Shown here one piece after another: positions 21,612 to 31,890 of a stretch of DNA of 64,000 nt. Position numbers and translations under genes: made by a program. The DNA comes from Altererythrobacter sp. TH136 (lineage in GTDB: Bacteria; Pseudomonadota; Alphaproteobacteria; Sphingomonadales; Sphingomonadaceae), in the NCBI RefSeq assembly GCF_007065885.1, contig NZ_CP041409.1, positions 496,001 to 560,000 of the forward strand. The letters run 5' to 3'. The notes below the pieces were generated by a model. The model was not told where the DNA came from and ran no database searches. It saw only the letters and a program-made list of their open reading frames with translations. Position 1 is the first letter of the stretch. Every line of letters starts with the position of its first letter.

Positions 21612-22442
21612 ATGCGTACTGCTCTTTTGTTGATCGCCGCCACGTGGAGCCTGCCAGCGCTGGCCCAACCCGCTCCGGGTCCAACCGCGCCCTCGGGCCG
21701 CCCGCCAGTGAACGAAGGGTGGTCCGTCACGGTGGGCGCGGCGCCCGTGGTCAGCCCCTCATGGCAGGGATCGAAGGACTACGTCCTCTCGATCTACCCG
21801 GATCTGCGGATCAACTATGGTGAGTTCTTCTTCGCATCGATCCCGGATGGTGTCGGCGTCAATGCGATCAACGCGAATGGGTGGCGCGCCGGTCCGATCG
21901 CCAAGGTGCGCTTCGGCCGGGACGAGGATGGCAGTGGCTCGCCGTTCGCGATCACCGGCGGCAGCGACGCCCTGCTCGGCCTGGGCGATGTCGGTGCGAC
22001 GGCCGAGGTTGGCGCGTTTGTCGAAAAGCGCTTCGGGAACCGCCAGCAATGGCGCGGGCGGGTGGAGGCGCGGCGCGGGTTCGGCGGGCACGAAGGTGCG
22101 ATCGGCGATCTGTCGCTGTCCTATCAGGCTCGCGTAGGGCGCACGATCATCAACGTGGGCCCACGGGCGACGGTGGCGACCAGGGATTTCACCCAGACAT
22201 TTTTCGGTATCGATGTGGCGCAGTCCCTTGCCTCCGGCCTTGCGCCCTACAGGCCAAAGGGTGGCCTGGTATCGTACGGGGTCGGCGGGTCGTTGATCCA
22301 TCCGCTCGACCGGCACAGCGCGATCACCGCCTTCTCCAGCCTGGAACGTTTGGGAGGGGTCGCGAAGGATTCGCCGCTTGTCGTGGAGCGGGGTCGGCCT
22401 ACGCAGTTCACCGCCGGGATCGGTTACGGCTACCGGTTCTAA
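21612..22442 (+). CDS. MipA/OmpV family outer-membrane protein
   Basis: 276 aa. Signal peptide (MRTALLLIAATWSLPALAQP) followed by a beta-barrel with the MipA hallmark near the start of the barrel (VTVGAAPVVSPSWQGSKDY) and the terminal GIGYGYRF ending in Phe, as in outer-membrane proteins. MipA relatives interact with murein hydrolases or act in stress sensing; several are induced by antibiotics. Start ATG 21612 has GGAG 8 bp upstream. Stop overlaps the convergent TspO-like gene by 4 bp. Confidence 0.87.
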   Translation: MRTALLLIAATWSLPALAQPAPGPTAPSGRPPVNEGWSVTVGAAPVVSPSWQGSKDYVLSIYPDLRINYGEFFFASIPDGVGVNAINANGWRAGPIAKVRFGRDEDGSGSPFAITGGSDALLGLGDVGATAEVGAFVEKRFGNRQQWRGRVEARRGFGGHEGAIGDLSLSYQARVGRTIINVGPRATVATRDFTQTFFGIDVAQSLASGLAPYRPKGGLVSYGVGGSLIHPLDRHSAITAFSSLERLGGVAKDSPLVVERGRPTQFTAGIGYGYRF

Positions 22443-23239
22443 CTACGGGAGGCCCCCGTCCAGGTACCTGACGGCGCGCGCTTGAACCCGGCTATCGCAC
22501 CGATCACAACCAGAATCACCGACAATGCCGCGGCCCACGCGACTGCGTCAGCCTTCTGGCCCCCCGCTGCGTAGATCGCCGACAGGGCCCACAGGAACAC
22601 GAGCGCGTAAGGCGGATTGCCGCGACCGCGCGCCAACGCGAGCGCGGCGACGACACCGCCGACGATGACGACCGCCGCACTGACCAGCGGGGCAGCATCG
22701 CCGGCCTCCACTCCGTGGAAGCGAAGCGACGCCGCGATGTTGACGATCGTCGCTGCCGTCAGCCACGCCGCCAGTGCGCTGAGCGGGAGCACGACCAGCC
22801 ATCGCTGGCCGGTGGTGAAGCCTTCTTCCCGGTTCGCAAAGATCCGGTAGCAACGAAGCAGGCACACCAGCGTGAAAATGATGATCAGGGCCGAGATCGC
22901 CGACAGCCCGAACGACTGGGTGTAAAGCGCCCAGACCGCGTTGCCCATGAAAGCGCCGGTTGCAGGCCAGCGTAACTTGTCGAGAAGGTGATCGCCTGCA
23001 TGGCGTGGCAGGAACTGATAAGCCGCGAACACGAACGCGCCGGTATACAACGGCCCCCATATCGCAAACGCCCAGCCCGCCGGGGTGATGAGCGTTCGCA
23101 CATCATCCGATTGCGACCCGATAGGTTCGCCGATCCCCAGGCTGGGAAGAACAGGCACCAGAACCTGCAGGATCGCGGTAGCGACCACCAGCCAACGCAC
23201 TGATCGGAATCGCGAGTCTTCGATGTTGGTTGCTGGCAT
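22439..23239 (-). CDS. TspO/MBR-related integral membrane protein
   Basis: 266 aa with about seven hydrophobic segments. Characteristic stretch TPAGWAFAIWGPLYTGAFVF resembles the tryptophan-rich sensory protein/peripheral benzodiazepine receptor group in an extended form. Further TM segments include WLVVATAILQVLVPVLPSLG and VSAAVVIVGGVVAALALA. TspO proteins bind porphyrins and tune stress or pigment responses; whether this long form does so is unknown. Stop overlaps the convergent mipA-like gene by 4 bp. Divergent from the FixJ-box gene with 222 bp between starts. Confidence 0.72.
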   Translation of the reverse strand: MPATNIEDSRFRSVRWLVVATAILQVLVPVLPSLGIGEPIGSQSDDVRTLITPAGWAFAIWGPLYTGAFVFAAYQFLPRHAGDHLLDKLRWPATGAFMGNAVWALYTQSFGLSAISALIIIFTLVCLLRCYRIFANREEGFTTGQRWLVVLPLSALAAWLTAATIVNIAASLRFHGVEAGDAAPLVSAAVVIVGGVVAALALARGRGNPPYALVFLWALSAIYAAGGQKADAVAWAAALSVILVVIGAIAGFKRAPSGTWTGASRS

Positions 23240-23350
23240 GATCTTCGAACGGGCAGACGGACGTTTCGTGCCGACGAGGCATAGTCTGCCAGCATCGATT
23301 ACGCGTCCGCCGGTCTGCAGAGCCTGCCGCCCCGCGCCTCCGGCAAAATA

Positions 23351-23386
23351 CTTAGGGGAGGCGCGGTAGGGACATCATCCAAATTC
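23351..23386 (+). promoter_or_regulatory. Putative FixJ-responsive element, copy A
   Basis: Sequence beginning CTTAGGGG, then an 8-bp variable part, then GTAGGGACATCATCCAAATT (20 bases identical to copy B at 26040-26075). The element contains a direct repeat TAGGGR-N8-TAGGGR. It ends about 75 bp before the start of the three-TM protein gene (23462). The same element stands the same distance before the alternative oxidase gene. Confidence 0.65.
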
Positions 23387-23461
23387 ATCAGCCAAGCTTT
23401 GGGGCGTACTCCCGGCAGACGATCTGGCGATCGCGCAGATTGGCAATGAAGGGGATCTGAC

Positions 23462-23893
23462 ATGCGCTACACACAGGATTTCGCCGCCGATGTGCGGGTT
23501 GTAACGACCGAAGAACTGGCCGCACTGGCATCACCCGGCCCCGCGCTGCCGGAACATTCCGATTTCGAATTTCCGCGCTGGATCTGGGCGATCATGCTGG
23601 GCGGCTACGCGACCTTCCTGGGTGGCCTGTTCGCCGCGACCGCGGGTGAAGCACGTGCCGCACTGGCAGTCGCCGTCAGCTCGCTCTACGTCGCGATGTT
23701 CTTTGGCACGGCGCGTATCCTGGCAAACGTGGATGGCCGCCGCATCGGCGCATTCACCCGCACCGGCGGCAAGCTCAACACGTGGACGGGCCCGATGGAC
23801 ATCGGCGCGGTCGCCGGACAAGTGCTGGTCCTTCCCGTGCTGCTCGGCTTTTTCGGGGTGTCGATCGCGGTGATCAGCGCCATTGTGTTCTGA
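23462..23893 (+). CDS. Hypothetical three-TM membrane protein under a FixJ-type element
   Basis: 143 aa. Cytoplasmic N-terminal ~38 residues (FAADVRVVTTEELAAL), then three TM segments at about 42-62, 66-88 and 118-142, with a short basic loop (NVDGRRIGAFTRTGGK). No known domain. Translation start ATG 23462 follows AAGGGGATCTGAC. The upstream region shares a 36-bp element with the alternative-oxidase gene at nearly identical distance (110 versus 111 bp), which suggests co-regulation by the neighbouring FixLJ pair. Stop lies 2 bp from the convergent fixJ stop. A role in hypoxic adaptation is inferred from context only. Confidence 0.7.
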   Translation: MRYTQDFAADVRVVTTEELAALASPGPALPEHSDFEFPRWIWAIMLGGYATFLGGLFAATAGEARAALAVAVSSLYVAMFFGTARILANVDGRRIGAFTRTGGKLNTWTGPMDIGAVAGQVLVLPVLLGFFGVSIAVISAIVF

Positions 23894-23895
23894 CG

Positions 23896-24534
23896 TCAGT
23901 GAGCGACTGACACGATCGTTGCCATGCGCACGAGTTCCGACAAGGTCTTGGCGTGCATCTTCATCATCAGGTTGGCGCGGTAGACTTCCACCGTCCGCGC
24001 ACTGATGTCGAGATCGAAGGCGATTGCCTTGTTGGCCTTTCCGGCGACGAGGCCTTCCATCACCTCGCGTTCGCGGTTGCTCAGGCTGGCGATGCGGTCG
24101 AGCACGATCTGGCGTTCGGCCGCCGCGCCCTGATCGCCGGCCTGTCGCGTAAGCGCCGCTCGGATCGCGGACAGCATCACTTCGTCATCGAAAGGCTTCT
24201 CGATGAAATCGGCGACGCCCGCCTTCATCGCCTGAATCGCCAGCGGAACATCCGCATGGCCGGTGATGACGATGACTGGCGGCGGCGACCCGCGCCGCTT
24301 TAGTTCCTCTGCCAGTTCGATCCCGTTGGTCCCCGGCATGCGCACATCAGTGACCACGCAGGCGCCCGAAAGCGGCGGCGCGGCCTTGAGAAAGGCATCG
24401 GCCGACGCGAAGGAGCGCACCCTGACGCCCGCGACGTCGAGCAGGAATTCTAGGCTGTGGCGCGCGCTCTCATCGTCATCGATCACATAGACGATCCCGT
24501 CGTTCGTTTCGGCCCCGACGTCCTCACTCGCCAT
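23896..24534 (-). CDS. fixJ: Oxygen-responsive response regulator FixJ
   Basis: 212 aa from ATG 24534 (MASEDVGAE). Receiver domain: acidic pocket VYVIDDDES, phosphoacceptor Asp63 in VVTDVRMPG, Thr in VIVITGHAD, Lys113 in IEKPFDDE. The C-terminal LuxR/NarL-type HTH ([20 protein letters not shown], then [16 protein letters not shown]) matches FixJ closely. The start overlaps the end of fixL by 11 bp, so they are coupled. Phospho-FixJ is expected to activate nearby promoters under low oxygen; the duplicated 36-bp element on both sides is the obvious candidate target. Confidence 0.93.
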
Positions 24535-26071
24535 CGTACAGTTCCTCTTTGCCAATGGCTTCCAGGGTAAAGCCGAACTCCGCCCCGCCGCCTCCGTTTG
24601 GCTTGCCCCAGATTCGTCCGCCGTGCGCTTCCACGATCGTACGGCAGATCGACAGGCCCACGCCCATACCCGCGCGCTTGGTGGTTATGAAGGGCTGGAA
24701 CAGGCGATTGGCGACTTCGGGATCGATGCCAGGCCCCGTGTCGGTGACGCGCACACTCGCCATGTCATCCGGGTGCGGCTCGATGGCGATTACCAGTTCG
24801 CGCCGCGCAAGGCTGCCTTCGGCCATCGCATCCACGGCGTTGCGTACCAGGTTCAGTACTACCTGCTGGATCTGGACCTTGTCGGCAAGCACCAGGTCGA
24901 TGTCCGGGTTGAATGCGTATTGGACGCGAATCCCGTGCTCCTTGGCCCCCACCAGCGCGAGCGCGCTCGCTTCCTCGACCAGCTTGGGCAAGCTTTCGAT
25001 CTTTCGTTCGCTCTCTCCGCGTGCGACGAAATCGCGGAGTCGGCGAATGATCTCGCCTGCACGCAGCGCCTCGCCGGCGGCGCGGTCGACCGCGTCCGCC
25101 ACCCGCTCGTGCGGGACCTCGTCCCGGGACAGCAGGATGCGGCTCCCCTTCAGGTAATTGGCGATCGCCGATAGCGGCTGGTTCAACTCATGCGCCAGCG
25201 CGGAGGCCATCTCGCCCAGCGCGGTCAAGCGGGAGACGTGCACGAGCTCGCTCTGCAGCTCTTGCAGGCGCGCTTCGGCTTGCTGCCGTTCCGTCAGATC
25301 GCGAACGAAACCCGTGAAATATCGCTGCCCGTCGGCCCACATCTCGCCCACCGCGAGTTCGAGCGGGAATGTCGAGCCGTCGCGCCGTTCTCCGACGACA
25401 ACCCGGCCCTTGCCGATGATGCGCTGCTCGCCCGTGCGGTAGTAGCGTTCGAGGTAGCCGTCGTGCGCACTGCGGTACGGGTCAGGCATCAGCATGCTGA
25501 CGTTTCGGCCCGCTACATCCTCGGCGCTCCACCCAAAAGTCCGCTCTGCCGCCGGGCTGAAGTCGCGGATCAATCCTGCCGCGTCGATCACCACGATCGC
25601 GTCCGGCACGGTATCGAGGATGGACCGCCAGTGAGCTTCGCGGCGCGCCAGCCCGGCCGCGGCAGCCTCGGTCTCGATCCGCGCGCGCTGAAACCATTCA
25701 CCGCCGATCGCGACGGCCAGCCCGATCGCAGAGAACGCGGCCGCCGCGATAACGCTGCCGGCCTCCAGTCGGTGCCCCGACCAGTCGCACCACAATCCGA
25801 TGCCGGCCCCGGCGATCGTGGCCAGAGCGCCCGCTCGCAATCCGGACAGCGCGCTTGCCAGCACCACCCCCGGGATCAGGAACAGGAAGGTGACCCGGCT
25901 GCCAAGCTCCGCGTCGAACGCCAGCCGGATCGCGGCCCCGGTGGCGATCACCACCAGCGCGATCGCCACCGCCAGCGGCACCGACAGGCGCGGAAGGAAG
26001 CGGCTCGCGAAGGCGGCGCGGCCCGCCTCCGTTAAAGCCCTTAGGGGCGGTCCAGTAGGGACATCATCCAA
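24524..26071 (-). CDS. fixL: Haem-PAS oxygen-sensor histidine kinase FixL
   Basis: 515 aa. N-terminal about 125 residues contain several TM helices; then a PAS domain (about 145-260) and HisKA/HATPase_c domains. The haem pocket is intact: proximal His203 in [13 protein letters not shown], Arg209 and Arg223, at the spacing (+6, +20) of H200/R206/R220 in Bradyrhizobium FixL. H-box [10 protein letters not shown] with His294, N-box [17 protein letters not shown]-boxes DTGPGID and GMGVGLSIC. Thus an oxygen-inhibited autokinase for the adjacent FixJ. The ATG at 26071 lies inside the 36-bp repeated element, so either the regulator site overlaps the fixL start or translation begins further in. Confidence 0.93.
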
Positions 26072-26075
26072 ATTT
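26040..26075 (+). promoter_or_regulatory. Putative FixJ-responsive element, copy B
   Basis: Same 36-bp element as at 23351: CTTAGGGG, N8, then GTAGGGACATCATCCAAATT. Located 111 bp upstream of the alternative oxidase start and overlapping the fixL start codon on the other strand, so binding here could activate the oxidase operon and affect fixL expression. No FNR/FixK-type TTGAT-N4-ATCAA site was found nearby. Confidence 0.65.
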
Positions 26076-26151
26076 CGCGGCCTCCCCCAGGCGGTTAATC
26101 GGCTTCATCAACGGCGCACAAGCAATTCCGCGCCGGCAATGGAGAACTTCA

Positions 26152-26841
26152 ATGACCGCACCGTTTATCGATCTTAGCGTCCACCACCAGCCCAAGGGCG
26201 TTTCGGACCGGATCGCCTACGGTTTCACCAAAGTCCTGCGCTGGACCGCCGACACTTTCTTTGCCGAACGCTATGGTCACCGCGCCGTGGTGCTCGAAAC
26301 CGTCGCGGCGGTGCCCGGGATGGTCGGCGCGACGATCAACCACCTCAGCGCGCTGCGCCGCATGTGTGACGACAAGGGTTGGATCAAGACCTTGATGGAC
26401 GAAGCCGAGAACGAGCGGATGCATCTCATGACGTTCGTCGAAATCTCCAAGCCCACCTTGTTCGAACGCGCGGTGATCATCGGCGTGCAGTGGGTGTTCT
26501 ACCTGTTCTTCTTCGCGCTCTACCTGATCAGCAGCAAGACCGCACACCGGGTGGTCGGCTACTTCGAAGAAGAGGCAGTGATCAGCTACACGCACTACCT
26601 CGCCGAGATCGACGAGGGCCGGAGCGAGAACGTCCCCGCCCCCGCCATCGCGAAGCGGTACTGGGGTCTGCCCGACGATGCCACGCTGCGCGACGTGGTG
26701 CTGGTGGTGCGGGCCGACGAAGCGCACCACCGCGACGTCAATCACGGCTTCGCTAACGAACTTGCCGGATTGCCTGTCGGTCCCGTCGCGGATTGCGTGC
26801 CTCACGTGGAGCTCGCACCCAACTGGAAGAAAGCGGCCTGA
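26152..26841 (+). CDS. aox: Alternative oxidase (cyanide-insensitive quinol oxidase)
   Basis: 229 aa. Non-proton-pumping diiron ubiquinol:oxygen oxidoreductase on the cytoplasmic face of the inner membrane. All diiron motifs are present: LETVAAVPGMVG (Glu49), EAENERMHLMTF (Glu88, His91), YFEEEAVISYTHYL (Glu in 139-141) and VVRADEAHHRDVNH (Glu190, His193). A hydrophobic hairpin (ERAVIIGVQWVFYLFFFALY) separates the pairs. It lacks the N-terminal Cys regulatory part of plant enzymes. Bacterial AOX is uncommon. The upstream element and divergent fixL suggest oxygen/NO-linked control. First gene of a four-gene operon. Confidence 0.95.
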   Translation: MTAPFIDLSVHHQPKGVSDRIAYGFTKVLRWTADTFFAERYGHRAVVLETVAAVPGMVGATINHLSALRRMCDDKGWIKTLMDEAENERMHLMTFVEISKPTLFERAVIIGVQWVFYLFFFALYLISSKTAHRVVGYFEEEAVISYTHYLAEIDEGRSENVPAPAIAKRYWGLPDDATLRDVVLVVRADEAHHRDVNHGFANELAGLPVGPVADCVPHVELAPNWKKAA

Positions 26842-26870
26842 GCACAGGTTGCGGGAGAGGAGGACAGGAC

Positions 26871-27215
26871 GTGCACGCCCCCATCGCTTTGCTGGTGAGC
26901 GACCAAGCGGTCCTGTCCTCGCTCCAGTTCGCCCTGTCGGTCGAGGGTTTCGCACTGGCGGCGGCCGGGGGTGACCTGGCCGCCGCTGGTGCGGTGGTGA
27001 TCGATCAGGGCTATCGCGGCGATGGCCTTGCAGCGCTCGTGGCGCTCCGAAGCCGCGGTAATGCCGTTCCGGCGATCCTGCTGGCGACCAACCCCACGCC
27101 GTCCTATCGCGCCCGCGCGGCGGACGCAGGCGCCGTCGTGATTGAAAAGCCACTCCTGGGCGACGAGCTAAGCAGCGCCATCTCGCACGTCATCGAGCCA
27201 AGGAAGGCCGCCTGA
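26871..27215 (+). CDS. Stand-alone receiver-like protein (FixT-like candidate)
   Basis: 114 aa, start GTG 26871 behind a very good Shine-Dalgarno (GAGAGGAGGACAG). Receiver fold: strand 1 IALLVSDQAVL (one acidic residue instead of two), candidate phosphoacceptor in AVVIDQGYRGDGLAAL, strand 4 VPAILLATN, and the Lys-Pro of VVIEKPLLG. No output domain. In rhizobia and Caulobacter a small receiver protein, FixT, inhibits FixL; this protein has the right size and is next to fixL, but it has no cysteines, unlike the Fe-S FixT of Caulobacter. The assignment is contextual. Ends 2 bp before the globin gene. Confidence 0.65.
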   Translation: MHAPIALLVSDQAVLSSLQFALSVEGFALAAAGGDLAAAGAVVIDQGYRGDGLAALVALRSRGNAVPAILLATNPTPSYRARAADAGAVVIEKPLLGDELSSAISHVIEPRKAA

Positions 27216-27217
27216 GA

Positions 27218-27604
27218 ATGACTGAAATCCCGATTACCGAGGAAGATATCGCCCGGCTCGTGCCGCGATTCTACGCCCGGGTGCGCCGTGACGCCGTGCT
27301 CGGTCCCATCTTCGACAACGCGATCGACGATTGGCCTCACCATCTTGGCAAGCTGCAAGCGTTCTGGTCCTCGGTCATGCTGACCAGCGGGCGGTACAAG
27401 GGCCAGCCGATGGTCGCGCACTTGAAACACGCCAGCCACATGACGCGGGAGAATTTTGACCGCTGGCTGACGCTATGGACCGAAGTCACCGAAGAGGAGC
27501 TTGGGCCGCAAGCTGCCGCCGCGTTCCAGGAAAAGGCCGGTCGGATCGCCGAGAGTCTGCAACTCGGCGTCGAATTCCACCGAGCGCGCGAGGTCGCTGC
27601 ATGA
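27218..27604 (+). CDS. Group III truncated haemoglobin
   Basis: 128 aa, 2-over-2 globin. Features of the group III (Ctb/trHbP) set: FYARVRRDAVLGPIFDNAID, WPHHLGKLQAFWSSVMLTSG, and GQPMVAHLKHASHM with the proximal His in the F helix region; LWTEVTEEELG in the G helix. Such globins bind oxygen and NO and are implicated in NO or microaerobic stress. Its place between the receiver protein and a DUF1971 gene in an AOX operon suggests NO detoxification or oxygen delivery during low-oxygen growth. Overlaps the next gene (ATGA). Confidence 0.9.
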   Translation: MTEIPITEEDIARLVPRFYARVRRDAVLGPIFDNAIDDWPHHLGKLQAFWSSVMLTSGRYKGQPMVAHLKHASHMTRENFDRWLTLWTEVTEEELGPQAAAAFQEKAGRIAESLQLGVEFHRAREVAA

Positions 27605-27894
27605 CCGCCCGGCTCCCCGACGGTGTCCGGTCATACAAGCGCACCCCAACCTTCACCGAAGGAACGGTGCCTGCCGGTTTGATCGGCGAGCATTCGACCA
27701 AGGAAGGCACCTGGGGCCTGATCAAAGTCGAGGAAGGCGAGTTGCGCTACGTCGTCACCGATCCGCGCCGGCAGGGCACCAGCGCCGTTCTGTCTCCGGC
27801 CACCGACCCGGGCGTGGTCGAGCCAACGATTGTCCATCGCGTCGAAGTGGTCGGGCCGGTCCGCTTCCATGTCGAATTCTTCCGCCCGGGCTAA
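27601..27894 (+). CDS. DUF1971 protein (YeaR/TehB-like cupin)
   Basis: 97 aa, single small beta domain: LPDGVRSYKRTPTFTEGTVP, THEG-like AEHSTKEGTWGLIKVEEGEL and IVHRVEVVGPVRFHVEFFRP at the C-terminus. This is the YeaR/TehB-N-type domain. In E. coli yeaR is induced by nitrate and NO and the domain occurs with tellurite-resistance enzymes, but no activity is proven. Starts at ATG 27601 inside the globin stop. Its presence with AOX and a truncated globin supports an NO/anoxia theme. Confidence 0.85.
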   Translation: MTARLPDGVRSYKRTPTFTEGTVPAGLIGEHSTKEGTWGLIKVEEGELRYVVTDPRRQGTSAVLSPATDPGVVEPTIVHRVEVVGPVRFHVEFFRPG

Positions 27895-29892: not shown

Positions 29893-30979
<1,087 letters not shown>

Positions 30980-30993
30980 GGAACTGAATTAGC

Positions 30994-31890
30994 ATGGCGC
31001 CGACCTCCCAACGGCGCTCCGGGCATTCGCGCAGGGCGCAATTTGGACTTTTCACTGGCTACGTCCTCGCCACCATCGGCGCGGCCGTTGGCGCGGTGCT
31101 GCTCGGCATATCGCTGTGGCGGCCGAGCTCGTTCAATGGTTTCCGCACGGCGGCGAGCGACACCGTCGCGCCGGCGGGCGAGGTCGCTGCTAAAGGCCGC
31201 GCCGAGGGACAGGGCCTGTTCGACAGCATCTCGGGGTATCTCGCCGCCGGCAGCCAGAACGCGGCGCTGAAGCAGGAAGTCGAACTTGCCCGCATCCGGC
31301 TGAAAGAAGCGCAGGCGGTGCGCACCGAGAACGCGCGCCTCAAGACGCTGCTTGGCTTCAGCGAAAGCGAGATCAAACCGGTCGCGATCACCCGGCTGGT
31401 CGGCTCCAGCGCCGCCAGCACCCGCCGCTTCGCCTACCTGGGTGCCGGCCGCAATCAGGGAGTTGGGATCGGCATGCCCGTGCGCAGCCCCCGCGGCGTA
31501 GTCGGACGCGTGCTGGAAGTGGGCACTGACAGTTCGCGCGTACTTCTCCTTGGCGACAGCGAAAGCGTCATCCCGGTGCGGCGGTCGAGGGACGAGGTCG
31601 TCGCATTCGCGGAAGGCCGCGGTGACGGACGCCTGCGCATCCGGCTGATCAACCTTGGCATCAATCCGCTGAAGAAGGGCGATGTGTTCGTCACCAGCGG
31701 CGCCGGCGGTTATTACCGACCGGGGATCGCGGTCGCTATCCTGCAGGAGGTCACCAACGACGGCGGCATAGCCGCCGTGATCAGCGATCCAGCCGCGACC
31801 GACTTTGTCGCGGTGGAGCCGATCTGGCAGGCGAACGCGGTCAGGGCGGCGGCACAGTGGTCTGCTCCCGACAAGGCCTCGCCGGAATGA
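30994..31890 (+). CDS. mreC: Rod shape-determining protein MreC
   Basis: 298 aa. Single N-terminal TM (about residues 15-40, FGLFTGYVLATIGAAVGAVL), coiled coil (ALKQEVELARIRLKEAQAV), then the tandem beta domain (VGRVLEVGTDSSRVLLLGDS, KGDVFVTSGAGGYYRPGIAV). Bitopic scaffold between MreB, MreD and PBP2. Stop overlaps mreD start by 4 bp. Confidence 0.95.
   Translation: MAPTSQRRSGHSRRAQFGLFTGYVLATIGAAVGAVLLGISLWRPSSFNGFRTAASDTVAPAGEVAAKGRAEGQGLFDSISGYLAAGSQNAALKQEVELARIRLKEAQAVRTENARLKTLLGFSESEIKPVAITRLVGSSAASTRRFAYLGAGRNQGVGIGMPVRSPRGVVGRVLEVGTDSSRVLLLGDSESVIPVRRSRDEVVAFAEGRGDGRLRIRLINLGINPLKKGDVFVTSGAGGYYRPGIAVAILQEVTNDGGIAAVISDPAATDFVAVEPIWQANAVRAAAQWSAPDKASPE

Follow-up and report, generated by a model that had tools for sequence, protein, structure and literature searches.

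What does an oxygen sensor control when its genes stand back to back with an alternative oxidase? FixL-FixJ is the textbook bacterial O2 sensor, famous for switching on nitrogen fixation, and in rhizobia it acts on other oxidases through FixK. In the 64,000-nucleotide stretch of the Altererythrobacter sp. TH136 genome analyzed here (the window), fixL-fixJ are divergent from the genes for an alternative quinol oxidase (aox), a FixT-like receiver, a group III truncated haemoglobin (trHb) and a DUF1971 protein. The first-pass annotation had listed FixL, FixJ, AOX, a receiver-like protein, a group III globin and DUF1971, and every one of these genes was found in its place; it had missed the likeness of the receiver to FixT, the promoter box, and the operon position that the gene at 23462 (MP143) has in relatives. 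The features are as follows.

23337-23387 (core 23366-23387), + strand: second putative FixJ box, upstream of MP143; its 20-base core is the same as that of the aox box
23462-23893, + strand: MP143, membrane protein of 143 aa; no Pfam or NCBIfam match
23896-24555, - strand: fixJ, response regulator; NCBIfam FixJ equivalog at 287.4 bits, cut-off 255; phospho-Asp D70
24524-26071, - strand: fixL, haem-PAS sensor kinase; PAS matches solved FixL chains
26026-26076 (core 26055-26076), + strand: putative FixJ box upstream of aox, CCTCCG-N6-CCCTTAGGGG-N7-GTAGGGACATCATCCAAATTTC, with -35-like CCAAATTTC
26095-26100, + strand: -10-like TTAATC; TA invariant in 30 aligned promoters (columns 71-72)
26152-26841, + strand: aox, alternative (diiron) quinol oxidase; Pfam AOX at 285 bits, cut-off 22.7
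26871-27215, + strand: FixT-like single-domain receiver; GTG start chosen; best NCBIfam model FixT, E 5e-10
27218-27604, + strand: group III truncated haemoglobin; best solved match 2ig3, E 2e-16
27601-27894, + strand: DUF1971 protein; Pfam PF09313 at 84.6 bits, cut-off 23.1

FixL combines a haem-PAS domain, with axial His and distal Arg, and a histidine-kinase core. The best solved match of its PAS part is 8js5 (E 2e-53), and H203, R223 and H294, which we take to be the axial His, the counterpart of the distal Arg in the alignment and the autophosphorylation site, are invariant in 77/77 aligned sequences (three loci counted twice). The whole protein scores 560 bits against the rhizobial NCBIfam FixL model, under the cut-off of 850, and this is still its best-scoring model. 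The mechanical TTG start at 26071 falls inside the promoter box; the true start probably lies downstream, and on plasmid pBAR3 the annotated fixL start is 28 bases beyond the box. D70 of FixJ is invariant in 75/75 aligned sequences, as are the diiron ligand residues of AOX in 84/84, and AOX matches a solved AOX structure with E 1.6e-57. The globin reaches 21.1 bits in Pfam against a cut-off of 21; its closest solved relative is a group III truncated haemoglobin, and the next solved match after 2ig3 stands at E 0.006.

The receiver-like protein appears to be FixT-like and a putative FixL inhibitor, by analogy with Caulobacter, where FixT inhibits FixL autophosphorylation (PMC7078487, in the sections available). 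It scores 39.4 bits on the NCBIfam FixT equivalog, far under the cut-off of 150; all 20 aligned relatives match FixT, 16 of them matching FixJ too. It contains no Cys at all, while 43 of 58 aligned relatives have the Cys. Such a gene is present in 44 of 60 linked aox operons, and homologues adjoin fixLJ in most of the fetched FixL loci with aox elsewhere.

Linkage was assessed in 80 named loci, those with the closest AOX relatives. The first-pass annotation had named loss of synteny in relatives as evidence against its module; no such loss was seen, the divergence of fixL-fixJ from aox being kept in 60 of the 80, with fixJ present in 60/60 of these, counts that are not independent, as the loci are related. 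Among 149 genomes sampled evenly across the family, with FixL counted at E <= 1e-140, AOX occurs in 31, this FixL in 14 and both in 12 (Fisher P 6e-8), and by gene coordinates aox and fixL adjoin in all 12; the linkage is therefore not due to chance. The layout recurs in Sphingomonadales, in Caulobacterales and on plasmids, and is not peculiar to TH136. Operon counts for trHb and DUF1971 were taken from tblastn, with which operon calling disagreed for both genes. A sigma-70 scan found no site, and a terminator scan found two, fewer than in shuffles.

The aox promoter carries an element of about 50 bases with the blocks CTTAGGGG, GTAGGGAC and -35-like CCAAATTTC. Across the 2.6-Mb TH136 genome, the box CTTAGGGG-N7-GTAGGGACATCATCCAAATTTC is found at two sites only, before aox and before MP143. 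The MP143 copy has a matrix score of 30.5 and a profile E of 1e-11, and a genome of the same genus shows the same box-MP143 arrangement. The gene lies outside the aox operon in TH136, yet has its own box, and a homologue sits inside the operon in 7 of 60 linked relatives; MP143 belongs to the fixLJ-aox module. Its predicted model shows three long helices at low confidence (pLDDT 60, pTM 0.40). The invariant columns of the promoter alignment (23/78) were dropped as evidence because the selecting pattern imposed most of them; only C14, A38, T71 and A72 were not imposed, the last two being the TA of the -10-like element.

From genome to genome, the box goes with FixL and not with synteny. In the even sample it precedes aox in 12/12 scored FixL-bearing genomes (scores 22.8-37.6) and in 0/18 FixL-less ones (at most 4.6), and leave-one-out scores exceed 10 in 59/59 linked loci, with a median of 34. 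When aox is unlinked, the box occurs in 14/16 loci whose genome has a full-length FixL elsewhere and in 0/4 without one; because these unlinked aox loci keep the box, its being tied solely to the gene neighbourhood is ruled out. Over 1.47 Mb of loci, 64 sites above 17 fall in aox promoters and 5 elsewhere, and the mirror control has none above 14. Boxes adjoining fixLJ in relatives precede fixK-like genes in two loci, fixT in one and hemN in another, and in some relatives hmp and NO-reductase genes have one too. Three FixL regions had no site scoring above 10, and the box search gave no match in 8 FixL-bearing genomes of one search and in 2 of 15 in another.

The box and the aox upstream regions were also compared with known fixK promoters. 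CSNAATWT, quoted as a fixK-promoter element in the available part of PMC4999443, occurs in 37 of 60 aox upstream regions (control mean 2.4); other such elements were found in 46 (TAAG), 3 (GTAGTTTCCC) and 0 (GTAMGTAG) of the 60, with control means of 10.1, 0.0 and 0.1. CCCTTAG and CCGAATTTC are common to the box and the S. meliloti fixK upstream region, to which the box matrix gives no score, the spacing there differing by one base. In the comparison records of S. meliloti and P. zucineum the best matrix scores were 9.0 and 4.8.

Intact modules were found on Sphingomonas bisphenolicum pBAR3, Sphingobium xenophagum p3 and Rhizorhabdus wittichii pSWIT01, all typed conjugative. FixJ is matched by 713 plasmid records, and the module was seen in 3 of 6 examined, chosen among the 40 matches listed. 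As in TH136, aox-FixT-trHb-DUF1971 is divergent from fixL-fixJ, and the plasmid box scores 37.3; unlike TH136, the three plasmids have an extra globin behind DUF1971, annotated in RW1 as nitric oxide dioxygenase, and no MP143 is annotated or noted on them. Of the other three, pSHV1 carries fixJ, an ATP-binding protein and two box sites above 17, one of them unexplained, and two are the comparison records of S. meliloti and P. zucineum.

The TH136 locus shares with the FixLJ-FixK-FixT system of Sinorhizobium meliloti and Caulobacter crescentus, as far as the available sections describe it, a haem-PAS FixL, FixJ, a FixT-like receiver and the promoter elements CCCTTAG and CC[AG]AATTTC (PMC4999443; PMC7078487). 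It differs in that the proposed direct output is AOX and a globin, in that the target operon itself includes the FixT-like gene, and in that the product of this gene is without the 4-Cys motif. No FixK was found at cut-off in the TH136 genome: two Crp-family genes exceed the Pfam cut-off, with FixK scores of 63 and 32 vs 300. The target regulator of the canonical cascade is thus absent at that threshold, whereas in relatives fixK-like genes do stand behind the box. The available text of PMC4999443 gives fixK as the only known conserved member of the FixLJ regulon, and nowhere in the available sections of the open PMC literature is FixLJ described as controlling an alternative oxidase.

Conserved divergent linkage, a box that tracks FixL, and boxes before fixK-like, fixT and hemN genes argue for FixLJ control of aox. 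The earlier proposal that FixLJ steers AOX thus gains good computational support, and its NO side gains indirect support from hmp, quinol-type NO reductase and further globins having the box or lying in the operon in some relatives, and from the induction of aox by anoxia and NO in Sphingopyxis granuli, a species that has the box and fixLJ. We put the probability at roughly three in four that the locus encodes a self-contained FixLJ-FixT circuit, acting directly on an operon for NO-resistant respiration and with feedback through FixT. A membrane-anchored haem-PAS FixL would be held off by O2; a fall in O2, or perhaps NO displacing O2, would lead to autophosphorylation at H294 and transfer to D70 of FixJ. 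Phosphorylated FixJ would bind CTTAGGGG-N7-GTAGGGACATCATCC beside -35-like CCAAATTTC and activate two promoters, those of aox-fixT-trHb-DUF1971 and of MP143. AOX would then take electrons from ubiquinol and reduce O2 with them at a diiron site that neither NO nor cyanide poisons. The globin would lower NO, and FixT would feed back on FixL.

A competing reading concerns the NO side of this circuit. FixLJ may turn on aox and the globin at low O2 only, the NO associations being incidental, an account to which we give clearly less than even odds. The conserved haem pocket of FixL and the boxes before fixK-like and hemN genes fit it, but the boxes and operon places of hmp, NO reductase and extra globins in some relatives do not, nor does Sphingopyxis granuli TFA. 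There, according to the sections available, both anoxia and NO induce aox (PMC6472365; PMC7713065); NO induces it in air, and NO or nitrate act more strongly than anoxia alone (PMC6472365). Anoxia without nitrate or NO induces it only weakly, which a sensor of O2 alone leaves unexplained, and induction was lost in the fnr double mutant too (PMC7713065); both points weigh against the FixLJ-FixT circuit proposed above. Those sections name no regulator of this aox (PMC6472365; PMC7713065). In the S. granuli type-strain genome fixLJ are adjacent, as in TH136, and a single box stands at aox, a second one being looked for there and not found; unlike TH136, none of FixT, trHb, DUF1971 or MP143 was found behind aox in the S. 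granuli locus compared.

In S. granuli, expression of aox further requires fnr and narG (PMC7713065, available part), which lends something to the view that the box serves another regulator (NnrR-, NsrR- or Fnr-type, or an alternative sigma factor), while the adjoining fixLJ acts on other genes. The -35/-10-like arrangement of the box agrees with this, and so does Vibrio fischeri, whose aox is likewise tied to nitric oxide but is under the NsrR repressor, of another family, with no FixLJ described in the part available (PMC1274295; cited by PMC6472365). We nevertheless consider this view unlikely, given that the box tracks full-length FixL between genomes, precedes fixK-like, fixT and hemN genes adjoining fixLJ, and has CCCTTAG and CCGAATTTC in common with the region upstream of S. 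meliloti fixK. Still less probable, and very unlikely, is that the genes are neighbors by descent and FixLJ does not regulate aox at all. Linked AOX proteins share 81-93% identity with that of TH136 and hence are not independent, as this would have it; against it stand the occurrence of the layout in two orders and on plasmids, the recurrence of the box upstream of unlinked aox, hmp and fixK-like genes, and MP143, which lies outside the operon with a box of its own.

The self-contained FixLJ-FixT circuit can be extended, tentatively and with odds clearly against the extension as a whole. FixL might act as an O2/NO competition sensor in which NO displaces O2 from the haem and lifts inhibition, making the module a mobile, FixK-independent cassette active even with O2 present. 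AOX might then provide NO-proof respiration while globins, joined in relatives by hmp and NO reductase, remove NO under the cassette's own FixT brake; MP143 might be a membrane factor of a new kind that serves AOX or protects against NO.

Direct control by FixLJ of a diiron oxidase and of genes that handle NO, in an operon that itself includes a FixT-like gene, would be a new version of the FixLJ-FixT circuit and would present the sensor as a plug-in module. FixLJ becomes a candidate regulator for the strong anoxia and NO induction of S. granuli aox, and FixL sensing of NO in vivo becomes a testable question, with one promoter and one deletion. The presence of the module on plasmids typed conjugative suggests that respiration under NO may be a transferable trait.

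The gene set described in the first-pass annotation, a fixL–fixJ pair divergent from aox with receiver-like, globin and DUF1971 genes, is present in full and in the order given there within the window (bases 496001-560000 of a one-contig, 2.6 Mb genome, completeness given as 100%):

23462, + strand: MP143, a 143-aa membrane protein gene, leftmost of the module
between MP143 and aox, - strand: fixJ and fixL, mutually overlapping
right of fixL, + strand (divergent from fixL): aox, FixT-like receiver, group III truncated haemoglobin (trHb), DUF1971, in that order
next after the DUF1971 gene, - strand: mutL, flanking gene

Residue alignments, in which three loci are counted twice, revealed that the FixL axial His, distal-Arg equivalent (placed by alignment to a solved FixL) and phospho-His are invariant among relatives (n = 77), as are the FixJ Asp (n = 75) and the AOX ligands (n = 84), the window being counted in each time. 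A 266-aa membrane-protein-like gene (window 22439-23239, - strand), without a match in Pfam and NCBIfam searches, has a 51% homologue near the module in the related locus L057. In the window (29936-31890) and in several relatives (L066, L077, L079 and L084), aox is followed within 5 kb by mreB-like (and mreC-like) genes, as though the module were preferentially located there.

Between fixL and aox lies a putative FixJ promoter element, hereafter the box, of the form CCTCCG-N6-CCCTTAGGGG-N7-GTAGGGACATCATCCAAATTTC-N19-TA (26026-26076), and a second copy precedes MP143 (23337-23387). Two copies of its 20-base core were counted in the window and none in shuffled sequences, and both a whole-genome search (up to three mismatches) and a whole-genome profile search (E <= 10, 150 of 332 candidates scored) placed the box at these two sites only. 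MP143 is a solitary gene preceded by a box both in the window and in L162, from a same-genus genome; a distant homologue in L101 is likewise preceded by one. Shorter forms occur in relatives, with the 22-base core spacing unchanged. The box overlaps a possible fixL 5' end, because the longest fixL ORF begins within it (26026-26071). Its CTCCGG, which on the fixL strand gives the Shine-Dalgarno-like CCGGAG, is kept in the MP143 copy, which has no adjoining fixL.

The proposed neighbourhood check was run on the best 80 of 529 AOX relatives from named genomes and bore out the linkage: fixL divergently adjoins aox in 60 of 80 loci, followed by fixJ in all 60, and by record title most of these belong to Sphingomonadales, Brevundimonas and Phenylobacterium (Caulobacterales) also being represented. 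On the same strand within 2.6 kb behind aox, a distance covered by 56 of the 60 linked loci, genes for FixT-like (44), trHb (35), DUF1971 (32) and MP143 (7) proteins were counted; ten loci carry none of these. Homology-based gene calls, named by reading the sequence, added a globin or flavohaemoglobin cluster at 7 and a Crp/Fnr-type regulator at 6 of the 80 loci. Among 149 genomes drawn evenly across the family, AOX was detected in 31, FixL (E <= 1e-140) in 14 and both in 12 (Fisher P 6e-8), G050 and G056 having FixL without AOX.

Presence of the box follows that of FixL. A matrix built from 59 linked loci gave leave-one-out scores of at least 10.6 in 59/59 (median 34.4), and was then applied to 20 unlinked aox loci, which exclude the linked L038. 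Where the genome encodes full-length FixL elsewhere (at least 518 bits; 16 loci), the box was found in 14 at shuffle p <= 0.01, L099 (p 0.013, odd position) and L105 (p 0.06) being doubtful; where the best FixL match reached at most 440 bits and left the membrane part uncovered, it was found in 0/4 (p >= 0.09), a FixL-like PAS-kinase match being present in three of these genomes. In the even sample, where a locus was available for scoring at 30 of 32 AOX matches, values were 22.8-37.6 in 12/12 aox loci with FixL and at most 4.6 in 18/18 without, the positives partly overlapping the training set and all loci being related. Nineteen of the 31 AOX-bearing family genomes lack FixL at E <= 1e-140, and the box is absent at their 18 scored aox loci (including L005, L010 and L013).

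Scanning 1,470,797 bases of named loci on both strands yielded 64 sites scoring >17 at aox promoters and five elsewhere, with zero sites >14 in the mirror control. Two of the five precede flavohaemoglobin genes (L080, over the hmp cut-off in the scanned copy of its genome; L068, identified by reading), one the L101 MP143 homologue, and one, in L111, no recognised gene; the fifth, upstream of an mreC-like ORF in L077, is probably due to chance. In a further set of fixLJ surroundings with aox absent or elsewhere in the genome, the box precedes fixK-like genes (L157, score 17.9; L159, 21.4; FixK the best NCBIfam model at 233 and 221 bits, under the cut-off of 300), fixT followed by a Crp/Fnr-type gene (L161, 31.4) and hemN, over cut-off (L158, 26.0), all beside fixLJ; L165 has a site (20.5) about 270 bases upstream of fixL, and the FixL regions L156, L160 and L166 gave no site >10. 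A second site in L163 (19.5) precedes a quinol-type NO reductase, and one in G081, with borderline E values, an MP143-like fragment and an nfu-like gene.

R2, a 54-position profile of the box, was applied to 37 genomes and found 22 sites at E < 1e-3 in 18 of them; those assigned to a place lie before aox, MP143 or hmp, or beside fixL. Its sensitivity is below that of the matrix, with no match at E <= 0.1 in eight FixL-bearing genomes, and it matched weakly (E 0.023 and 0.067) in two genomes without full-length FixL. R2 also matched in 13 of 15 further genomes (E <= 0.2); for the S. granuli type strain the single match is at aox, a second being sought there and not found.

Known fixK-promoter elements are quoted in PMC4999443. 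Of these, CSNAATWT occurs in 37/60 linked upstream regions (control mean 2.4, maximum 7), TAAG in 46/60 (10.1, 20), the decamer GTAGTTTCCC in 3/60 (0.0, 1) and GTAMGTAG in 0/60. CCCTTAG and CCGAATTTC of the box recur in TAAGTAGTCTCCCTTAGTGATCTAACCGAATTTC, the sequence upstream of the presumed S. meliloti fixK, where they stand one base closer together than in the Brevundimonas type; the matrix gives this region no score.

In S. granuli, aox rose 70-fold with NO in the absence of nitrate, and 5-fold each for anoxia and for NO in air in an RNA-seq table (PMC6472365); anoxic induction was lost in narG and fnr double mutants by RNA-seq, narG having the stronger effect, and NO was proposed as inducer (PMC7713065). 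FixLJ is not named as regulator of aox in the consulted passages of PMC6472365 and PMC7713065. PMC7713065 also places SGRAN_3394, a 'TatC' gene, alongside aox among probably NO-induced genes. In R. wittichii RW1 a group III truncated globin is annotated as TatC translocase (L176:2950-3333, Swit_5297, against L174:2953-3336); SGRAN_3394 may be such a globin. Since anoxia alone induces aox weakly, O2 is arguably not the whole signal. FixL haem also binds NO, which is a weaker inhibitor of the kinase than O2.

The window's genome has three haem-copper oxidase genes, CtaD and CyoB over the NCBIfam cut-off and a long fused protein classed by reading (G000:C1:38223-39560, L169). AOX is the sole oxidase detected outside that type; cytochrome bd was looked for in this genome and not found, and neither Fnr nor FixK appeared at the NCBIfam cut-off. 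Annotation also places the entire module on three plasmids typed conjugative, one each in Sphingomonas bisphenolicum, Sphingobium xenophagum and Rhizorhabdus wittichii RW1, with the window's gene order plus one extra globin and a box score of 37.3.

Together, these sequence comparisons indicate that FixJ likely controls aox and MP143, with O2, by homology, the likely signal and NO, acting through FixL, a possible one. This is not a new kind of system but a variant of the FixLJ–FixT circuit, whose novelty would lie in its direct output.
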